A stretch of 64,000 nucleotides of DNA, from positions 459,565-523,564 of the forward strand of contig JAPZUA010000001.1 in NCBI GenBank assembly GCA_027532905.1, written 5' to 3'. How positions within the stretch are numbered: the stretch's first letter is position 1; every line of letters starts with the position of its first letter. Below, one piece after another: positions 17,115 through 50,388 of this stretch. The notes beneath the pieces were generated by a model, which had not been told where the DNA came from, made no database searches, and saw only the letters and a list, made by a program, of their open reading frames with translations. The stretch is from Magnetospirillum sp. (lineage in GTDB: Bacteria; Pseudomonadota; Alphaproteobacteria; CACIAM-22H2). The position numbers and the translations under genes are program-made.

Positions 17115-17756
17115 TCAAAAGCCTTTCCAACTCAGCCAATGGTCGGCGCGCGCATCGGCCGCAAGCGGTGCGAAGGCAGCGCGCTCGGTCACAATCCAGT
17201 CGAGCGGCACGTCGTGCGGTGCGCGCGGCACGTTCGGCGTTTCCTGCATTGCATAGCCGATTCCCACCGCCAGCACGCGCCCGCGTTTGCGCAATCCCGC
17301 GAGCGTGCGGTCGTAATAGCCGCCCCCGTAGCCCAAACGATAGCCCTGGCGGTCGAATGCCAAGAGGGGTGCCACGACGATGTCGGGCACGACGGCAGGC
17401 GCATCGCGCGACGGCTCGGCCATGCCGAAGCGATGCGGCACGAGCGGAGCACCCGGCATCCACGCGCGGAACACGAGCGGTGCGGCTTTGGCTTCGACGA
17501 CCGGCAACGCCAGCGCCACACCCTTGGCCGCCAATGCTTCAAGCAGCGGCAACGGATTGATCTCGTCGCCAAAGGCAGAATAGGCGGCCACGACGGCATT
17601 CTGCGGCACCTCGATCTGCGCCAAGAAGCGGTCGCGCACGGCGCGCGCGGCACTCGCAGCCTCGAGCGCGTGCACGCCCGCGCGCAGCTTGCGCATGTGG
17701 TCGCGCAATGCGGCTTTCTCGGGGCTTTGATCAAGCGGCGGCGGGCGGGCGCTCAC
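17115..17756 (-). CDS. fthC: 5-formyltetrahydrofolate cyclo-ligase
   Basis: Recycles 5-formyl-THF to 5,10-methenyl-THF using ATP. Key motifs: MRKLRAGVHALEAASAARAV at the N-terminus, AYSAFGDEINPLPLLEAL, RFGMAEPS, the substrate/ATP site VAPLLAFDRQGYRLGYGGGY and YYDRTLA. I choose GTG at 17756 (213 aa); an earlier in-frame ATG at 17900 would lie inside the structured RNA at 17821-17980. Being just downstream of a 6S RNA candidate mirrors the ssrS-ygfA arrangement of other proteobacteria. Confidence 0.9.
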   Translation of the reverse strand: MSARPPPLDQSPEKAALRDHMRKLRAGVHALEAASAARAVRDRFLAQIEVPQNAVVAAYSAFGDEINPLPLLEALAAKGVALALPVVEAKAAPLVFRAWMPGAPLVPHRFGMAEPSRDAPAVVPDIVVAPLLAFDRQGYRLGYGGGYYDRTLAGLRKRGRVLAVGIGYAMQETPNVPRAPHDVPLDWIVTERAAFAPLAADARADHWLSWKGF

Positions 17757-17778
17757 AGAGGGTTTCCGATCCCGGCAA

Positions 17779-17809
17779 GCCTGAATTGCGAAGAGGCCTG
17801 AATTGCGAA
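17779..17809. repeat. 14-base direct repeat between the 6S RNA candidate and fthC
   Basis: GCCTGAATTGCGAA occurs exactly at 17779-17792 and again at 17796-17809, 17 bases apart. It lies in the spacer between the structured RNA and the fthC start. It may be a small duplication or a processing or regulatory element. Confidence 0.7.
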
Positions 17810-17820
17810 AATGAAAGAGT

Positions 17821-17980
17821 GGACGGAGCCACAGCGGCCGTCGGCGTTGGTTTCCTCCGTGGCCCGCTATAAGCAGGTGGGAACCATATTCCGAAACCAC
17901 GGTTTCGGAAGGAACAGTCCCCTAGGAGTGTGTATCGCCCCGGGGAATACGCATGCCTAACGCACCCCGCAGCCCCGTCC
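17821..17980 (-). ncRNA. ssrS: Candidate 6S RNA (ssrS) upstream of fthC
   Basis: About 160 bases on the minus strand fold as a 6S-like rod. The closing stem pairs 13 of 13 bases between 17968-17980 and 17821-17833; four of these are G-U pairs that would be mismatches on the plus strand, which fixes the strand. The apical end has a perfect inverted repeat, TTCCGAAACC/GGTTTCGGAA (17889-17910), stacked on GGGGAC/GUUCCC. Between the two lies a large, mostly unpaired central region whose 3' side holds a 5-bp hairpin, CCUGC-UUAUA-GCGGG. A sigma-70 promoter places the start exactly at the closing stem. 6S RNA binds the RNA polymerase-sigma70 holoenzyme and tunes transcription in stationary phase. 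Position before the ygfA/fthC homologue supports the call. Confidence 0.75.
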
Positions 17981-17986
17981 GTCTTC

Positions 17987-18015
17987 AACATAGGCCGCTG
18001 CCGCCCCCATAGCAA
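17987..18015 (-). promoter_or_regulatory. Sigma-70 promoter of the 6S RNA candidate
   Basis: On the minus strand, TTGCTA (18010-18015) and TATGTT (17987-17992) are separated by 17 bases. The predicted start, 6 bases beyond the -10 box, is 17980, the first base of the closing stem of the RNA. Confidence 0.65.
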
Positions 18016-18058
18016 CCCGATACGCAAGCGTTGCCATTCGATGCCCGAGCCGCGGTGC

Positions 18059-19489
18059 TCAGAACCCCTTCGGCAGCGTGAGGCTGGCGCGCAAGCCCCC
18101 GCCTGTGCCGTCAAGGCGCGCGGCGTCGGGGCTCGTGCGATTGGCAAGCGTCACGTCGCCGCCTTGCGCGCGCGCGAGATTGCGGGCGATCGCGAGCCCC
18201 AGCCCCGTGCCGCCAGTCGTGCGATTGCGGCTGTCTTCCAGCCGCATGAAGGGTCGGAAAACGTCTTCGAGGCGGTGTTCGGGGATCCCCGGCCCGTCGT
18301 CGTCGATGTCGATACGCACGGAATCGAGCAGATCGACGACCGAGATGCGCGCACGCCCGCCATAGGCGATCGCATTGTCGACGAGATTGCCGACGGCACG
18401 GCGCAACGCGTCGGCGCGTGCCGCGACGACAAGCGGTGCGTGCGGTGCGCAGCGCACATCCTGGTCCATGTCGGCGCGCTCGTCGGCGAGTGTTTGCAGC
18501 AGCGAAGCGAGATCGATGCGGTCGGACGGGCCGGGCGCGTCGTCGATGCGCGCGAATTCGAGCGTCTCGCGCGCGATCGCTTCGAGGGCGTCGATGTCGC
18601 GGCTCAAGGCCGCGCGCAAATCCGGATCTTCGACGCGCTCGACGCGCAGGCGCATGCGCGTGAGCGGCGTGCGCAGATCGTGGCTGATCGCCGCGATCAT
18701 CGTCGTGCGGTCGCCCACGAAGCGGGCCACGCGCCGGCGCATCTCGGCGAAACTGTCGGCGATTACGCGGATCTCGCGGGCGCCCCGGCGCGGCAGCGCC
18801 TCGTCGGCGATCCCGCGCCCGAAGCGCTCGGCCGCGCGCGCCAGCAGCCCCAACGGGGCCGCGATGCGCGCGATCGCCCACCACGCGACGAACGAGGCCA
18901 CGCCCAGCAGCATCAGAAGCCACCCGGCGAGGACTTTGAGGGCCGCATACGACCTTCCGCCGGGCAGGGTGGGCCGCACCACGAGCGCGTCGCCGCCCGC
19001 ATCGACGAAGGTGGCGACGAAAAACGTGACCGTCACCGACACCGGCTCCGTCCGGCTCGCGAGCGGCGGAACGCGTTCGAAGGCCGGCGGCCCGAAAGCG
19101 CGAAAAGTGCGCGGCGGGCCGACCGCGAGTTCGATTTGCTTCCACGCGCGCTTCGAGTGCCCGGCGAGCGCTGCCGTCAGATAGGCGGATTCGGCATCGT
19201 CGGCCTGCGAGGTGACCAGCATCGGCGCGCCGTCGGTCTCGAAAACGAACCAGCGCGCTTCGTTCTGCCGCGCAAGCCACGCGGCACGCTCGGCGCGCGG
19301 CAGCGCCATTGCGCCGTCGGCGAGCGCTGCCAGCCTCTCGGCGAGCCAGTCGGAGTCGAAGGTCTGGACCGTTGGCCGCGCCTGGAGCGCCAACAGGCCG
19401 ACCGAACCGATTTGCACGGCCATCAGCATGCACACCGCGAGCAGCGCCATCTGCGGCCCCAAGCGGCTCGGCCACAGGCGTTTGATCAT
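18059..19489 (-). CDS. Sensor histidine kinase, EnvZ-like
   Basis: 476 residues from ATG 19489, overlapping the response-regulator stop as ATGA. Order: first membrane helix (MALLAVCMLMAVQIGSVGLLAL), a periplasmic domain of about 110 residues, second helix (LAGWLLMLLGVASFVAWWAI), HAMP, the HisKA dimerisation helix with phospho-His in ISHDLRTPLTRMRLRVE, then the ATPase with N box NLVDNAIAYGG, G1 DDDGPGIP, F box VFRPFMRLE and G2 GGTGLGLAIARNLARA. The stimulus is unknown. Its partner is the adjacent OmpR-type regulator. Confidence 0.95.
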   Translation of the reverse strand: MIKRLWPSRLGPQMALLAVCMLMAVQIGSVGLLALQARPTVQTFDSDWLAERLAALADGAMALPRAERAAWLARQNEARWFVFETDGAPMLVTSQADDAESAYLTAALAGHSKRAWKQIELAVGPPRTFRAFGPPAFERVPPLASRTEPVSVTVTFFVATFVDAGGDALVVRPTLPGGRSYAALKVLAGWLLMLLGVASFVAWWAIARIAAPLGLLARAAERFGRGIADEALPRRGAREIRVIADSFAEMRRRVARFVGDRTTMIAAISHDLRTPLTRMRLRVERVEDPDLRAALSRDIDALEAIARETLEFARIDDAPGPSDRIDLASLLQTLADERADMDQDVRCAPHAPLVVAARADALRRAVGNLVDNAIAYGGRARISVVDLLDSVRIDIDDDGPGIPEHRLEDVFRPFMRLEDSRNRTTGGTGLGLAIARNLARAQGGDVTLANRTSPDAARLDGTGGGLRASLTLPKGF

Positions 19490-50315: not shown

Positions 50316-50388
50316 TGGGCCCGGCAGGATTCGAACCTGCGACAACACCGTTATGAGCGGCGGGTTCTAACCGCTGAACTACGGGCCC
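50316..50388 (-). tRNA. tRNA with CAU anticodon, probably tRNA-Ile2 (lysidine type)
   Basis: The minus strand folds as a complete cloverleaf: a 7-bp acceptor GGGCCCG/CGGGCCC, D arm with TTCAGCGGTTAGAA, anticodon stem CGCCG/CGGTG around loop CTCATAA (anticodon CAT), and T arm GCAGGTTCGAATCCTGC. Discriminator A; CCA is not encoded (CCG follows). The short D loop and GCTCATAAC context resemble tRNA-Ile2 rather than elongator or initiator Met (the acceptor begins with a normal G-C pair, so not initiator). TilS at 3122-4456 would modify it. Confidence 0.9.

Follow-up and report, generated by a model that had tools for sequence, protein, structure and literature searches.

Does the minus strand upstream of fthC in this genome encode a 6S RNA, and if so, is the gene intact and alone? 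The initial annotation, made from the letters of the window (the whole stretch of 64,000 nucleotides analysed here), had proposed a 160-base minus-strand 6S RNA at this place. That claim is upheld in strand, position and anatomy by a full-length match to the Rfam family RF00013, by the fold and by covariation. Judged from its sequence, the minus strand at 17821-17980 is almost certainly a typical 6S (SsrS) RNA gene of the canonical alphaproteobacterial kind, real, intact and single-copy. A 6S RNA before fthC is nothing new; it is the expected gene at the expected place. A reading of the raw sequence alone had found a real 6S RNA, with strand and ends right.

Identity and fold of the RNA

The Rfam covariance model of RF00013 matches 17822-17978 with 62.1 bits and over its full length (model positions 1-187 of 187), at E-values of 2.7e-11 (local stretch) and 6.8e-10 (whole window). 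The curated cut-off is 46.4 bits, so the Rfam search that the initial annotation had suggested comes out in its favour. At the 6S locus no Rfam family other than RF00013 exceeds its cut-off; the two other Rfam rows of the local scan are sub-threshold and are placed at 18582-18699. Elsewhere in the window, a tRNA at 50316-50388 is the sole other Rfam family above its cut-off. The gene measures about 160 nt, with exact ends that are predicted; its two outermost G-C pairs, which lie beyond the Rfam range, are the same in all 20 family sequences. It resembles the known 6S RNA (SsrS) in length, closing stem, central bubble with 3′ mini-hairpin, apical hairpin and location before fthC (ygfA), and differs in that zapA is not adjacent in this genome. 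Two relatives of the same RNA family and the same class are sra56 of S. meliloti (excerpts of PMC2245857) and the 6S RNA of R. sphaeroides (Elkina et al. 2017, as cited in excerpts of PMC10406553 and PMC8414754).

When the RNA is read from 17980 to 17821 (160 nt), its first 14 bases (5′ arm, 17967-17980) pair without a break with its last 14 (3′ arm, 17821-17834), and four of these pairs are G-U. Read on the plus strand, these arms give just 6 pairs. The initial annotation had described a 13-of-13 stem whose four G-U pairs fix the strand, and the 14 consecutive pairs on the minus strand against 6 on the plus strand agree with it. By itself the closing stem is weak evidence. Of the 3,891,800 placements tested on each strand of the window, 50 (23 on the plus strand and 27 on the minus strand, with overlapping ones counted separately) give 13 pairs out of 13 with a span of 140-200, too many for a stem of this kind to be proof in itself. 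The whole fold is stronger evidence than the stem alone, since it adds the comparison with shuffled sequences, the full-length RF00013 match and covariation. Positions 17822-17978 fold with -74.4 kcal/mol versus a shuffled mean of -60.8 (z -3.19), and 0 of 200 shuffles fold as low.

The inner parts of the rod, all on the minus strand, were likewise recovered as first described. In the minimum-energy fold the apical hairpin at 17889-17910 runs for nine pairs without interruption. That fold and the 20-sequence consensus both contain the mini-hairpin on the 3′ side of the large central bubble (17863-17877, CCUGC with GCGGG). The bubble's 5′ side, at 17923-17936 (RNA positions 43-56 counted from 17978), is single-stranded in the Rfam-derived structure and in the minimum-energy fold, and lies inside an unpaired stretch of the consensus. 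Within it, an AUA is invariant in 20 of 20 family sequences.

Covariation was assessed in a family of 23 genomes, 21 of which have an RF00013 match; one of these (G019), cut by a contig end, was dropped. The remaining 20 form the rows of the alignments and of the promoter counts. Identical rows were counted once in the covariation tests, which leaves 18 distinct sequences. On these, 90.4% of the cells in the Rfam-derived structure are paired (shuffled mean 86.5%), both sides have changed in 32 cells (shuffled mean 10.3) and the covariation score is 0.228 (versus 0.147); 0 of 500 shuffles reach any of the three values. Related sequences can beat shuffles even where there is no structure, and kinship alone can inflate such counts. 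Two measures are weaker: 8 pairs with both-sided change (reached by 30 of 500 shuffles) and 33 further pair types (reached by 20 of 500). When partners are slid by 1-3 columns, pairing falls to 37-51%. The window's own minimum-energy fold keeps 84.8% of cells in the alignment.

RNAalifold, run on the same alignment, returns 45 pairs, nine with compensatory changes, and the five-pair mini-hairpin on the 3′ side of the bubble. The apical hairpin holds most of the compensatory changes, which affect 5 of its 9 pairs. For the inner lower stem the register is uncertain, since just 71.1% of cells keep helix 2 of the Rfam-derived structure and RNAalifold favours a shifted register there. That uncertainty apart, covariation supports the rod with its closing stem, its large central bubble and its apical stem-loop.

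Promoter, fthC and proposed mode of action

A sigma-70-type promoter with a 17-base spacer, and a start on the first paired base, had been proposed for this RNA. The sequence agrees, and the promoter core is conserved in the 20 family genomes. On the minus strand, the -35 element TTGCTA (18010-18015) has T and T in 20 of 20 genomes and G in 19 of 20. The -10 element TATGTT (17987-17992) has the conserved core CTAnnTT, whose columns C, T, A, T and T are each found in 20 of 20 genomes; three genomes carry one extra base inside this core. In the columns between the two boxes, agreement never goes beyond 15 of 20 genomes. Each locus was turned to the 6S strand for the promoter alignment, and the counts leave aside the loci of ten further genomes of the class. 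By manual count 8 of the promoter's 12 positions agree with the E. coli consensus, and a promoter scanner that needs 9 of 12 reported none at the 6S locus. The first paired base, 17980, lies downstream of TTGCTA-17-TATGTT, a spacing that would put the start of an RNA with its own promoter at the base of the closing stem.

Directly downstream on the same strand is fthC (ygfA), for 5-formyltetrahydrofolate cyclo-ligase, at 17115-17756 (PF01812, E 2.9e-35). The neighbourhood of 6S RNA and ygfA/fthC that had been noted at the outset is present, and according to excerpts of PMC9130861 ygfA often adjoins 6S RNA, alphaproteobacteria included. The gap from the 6S RNA to the fthC Pfam match is 104 bases in the window. 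An upstream fthC start at 17900 had been predicted to cover the RNA wrongly, and this is borne out: in the frame that opens at 17900, the cyclo-ligase domain does not begin until residue 62. A GTG at 17756 yields a complete protein, begins 39 bases before the domain and lies outside the RNA. We propose this GTG as the start of fthC. Two points of the annotation need mending: the 6S gene is to be entered, and fthC is to begin beyond the RNA, at GTG 17756 and not at 17900.

The gene ymdB (PF13277) also lies downstream of the 6S RNA, on the same strand as fthC. Between the 6S RNA and fthC, the minus strand carries CGCAATTCAGGC twice, 17 bases apart, at 17779-17807; close relatives L024 and L025 have a single copy. 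The upstream neighbour, at 18059-19489 on the minus strand, encodes a sensor histidine kinase, with a start at ATG 19489 proposed from translation; the Pfam domains HATPase_c and HisKA are above their cut-offs in 18062-19408. A response regulator gene also lies upstream of the 6S RNA.

Since the RNA sits directly upstream of fthC and on the same strand, it might be a structured 5′ leader or attenuator of that gene rather than a free 6S RNA, and the finding of no intrinsic terminator in 17600-18200 would fit such a transcript. We hold this to be very improbable: the full-length match is to 6S RNA and to no other family above its cut-off at the locus. The two readings also need not exclude each other. 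In E. coli, 6S transcription is reported to read through into ygfA, with Rho-dependent termination before that gene (Chae et al. 2011, as cited in excerpts of PMC10406553).

It might also be asked whether this is a decayed, non-functional copy whose working counterpart lies elsewhere. Its score is below that of some genus members (78.2 bits in two), and the genome searched (4.26 Mb in 13 contigs) is 95.68% complete, so another copy could sit in the missing part. The initial annotation had named a clear 6S RNA elsewhere in the genome as evidence against its own reading, and an RF00013 search at E up to 10 found no second locus. The fold and the promoter are intact and are conserved across the family, with compensatory changes. 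A decayed copy is, in our estimate, even less probable than a leader, and an intact 6S RNA gene is the reading we retain.

6S RNA acts as a promoter mimic that sequesters the housekeeping holoenzyme and is released by synthesis of a product RNA (pRNA), as described in excerpts of PMC10406553 and PMC8414754. We propose that the RNA at this locus would be used in the same way. Minus-strand transcription from the housekeeping-type promoter would start at about 17980, and the RNA would fold into a rod whose large internal bubble imitates an open promoter. It would then bind RNA polymerase with the housekeeping sigma factor and lower its use of DNA promoters as growth slows. On recovery, the bubble's 5′ side would serve the polymerase as template for a short pRNA starting near plus-strand position 17934, which would refold the 6S RNA and free the polymerase. 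Sequence comparison shows that gene, fold and promoter are conserved. It is membership of the RNA family that would lead one to expect the start site, binding of the polymerase, regulation by growth phase, synthesis of a pRNA and any co-transcription with fthC.

Distribution, zapA and the predicted pRNA template

An RF00013 match (E ≤ 0.001) was found in 48 of 61 genomes, this one included, and in 42 it is above the cut-off; this search used stricter filters, by which some weak matches are lost. In the other 13 of the 61 nothing matched; two of these belong to the same genus and are 84% complete. A separate set of 17 loci, the nearest relatives and named species chosen from 80 loci around ymdB, was also scanned. 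In 16 of the 17, which come from named alphaproteobacterial records, RF00013 is at or above its cut-off; L093 has no match at the cut-off. The closest loci by ymdB (97% identical) belong to metagenome-assembled genomes that their depositors labelled Telmatospirillum sp. and Rhodospirillaceae bacterium.

Synteny was scored within limits that we set, 1,500 bases for fthC and 2,500 for zapA, with gaps taken to the edges of the Pfam matches and not to start codons. Within these limits fthC is downstream of the 6S RNA on the same strand in 45 of the 48 genomes; it is out of reach in G019 (where the 6S RNA is at a contig end), G035 and G042. Upstream of the 6S RNA, zapA is found in 35 of the 48. The 13 genomes with no zapA in reach comprise nine that have it on another contig, one, G057, in which 50,451 bases separate it from the 6S RNA, and three in which no zapA was matched. 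In two of the nine (G012 and G017) the 6S RNA is near a contig end. In the present genome zapA is on contig C5 (L031, G000:C5:211907-212128). The 6S RNA is at 477 kb inside the 1.6-Mb contig C1, and a contig end therefore does not explain the separation. Five further members of the genus with a 6S match also have zapA on a contig other than that of the 6S RNA.

The 5′ side of the bubble contains CGAUA, which we take to resemble the E. coli template start at U44. On account of this likeness the pRNA is predicted to start at plus-strand position 17934, and its first 16 nt (17934-17949, plus strand), AUCGCCCCGGGGAAUA, would be copied from the 5′ side of the bubble and the lower stem. An A next to this inferred start is present in 20 of 20 family sequences. 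Excerpts of PMC8414754 describe a conserved A next to the start, and GG at pRNA positions 4/5 in E. coli, A. aeolicus and R. sphaeroides. The predicted pRNA of the window starts AUCGCCCC and, unlike those three, lacks this GG. Counted from the start that we infer, GG at 4/5 is present in 12 of 20 family sequences.

A single base sets the predicted pRNA template apart from the one in the sister branch of the genus, so that the pRNA would begin with AUCGCCCC and not with AUCGGCCCC. Absence of the GG and zapA on another contig occur together in six genus genomes (G000, G002, G003, G004, G006 and G008), and the other three genus genomes with a match (G005, G009 and G010) keep the GG and have zapA upstream. 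The two traits part outside the genus, as G013 lacks the GG yet has zapA 619 bases upstream. Shared descent is for this reason the simplest reading of the parting from zapA and the lack of the GG within the genus. If the one-base change did alter pRNA release, this branch, with its zapA-parted 6S RNA, would possess a retuned 6S recovery switch; we regard this as improbable.

In the window, the histidine kinase gene stands upstream of the 6S RNA where zapA usually sits. A related kinase is also upstream of the 6S RNA in L025 and L024, and none is shown in L026, L013 and L014.
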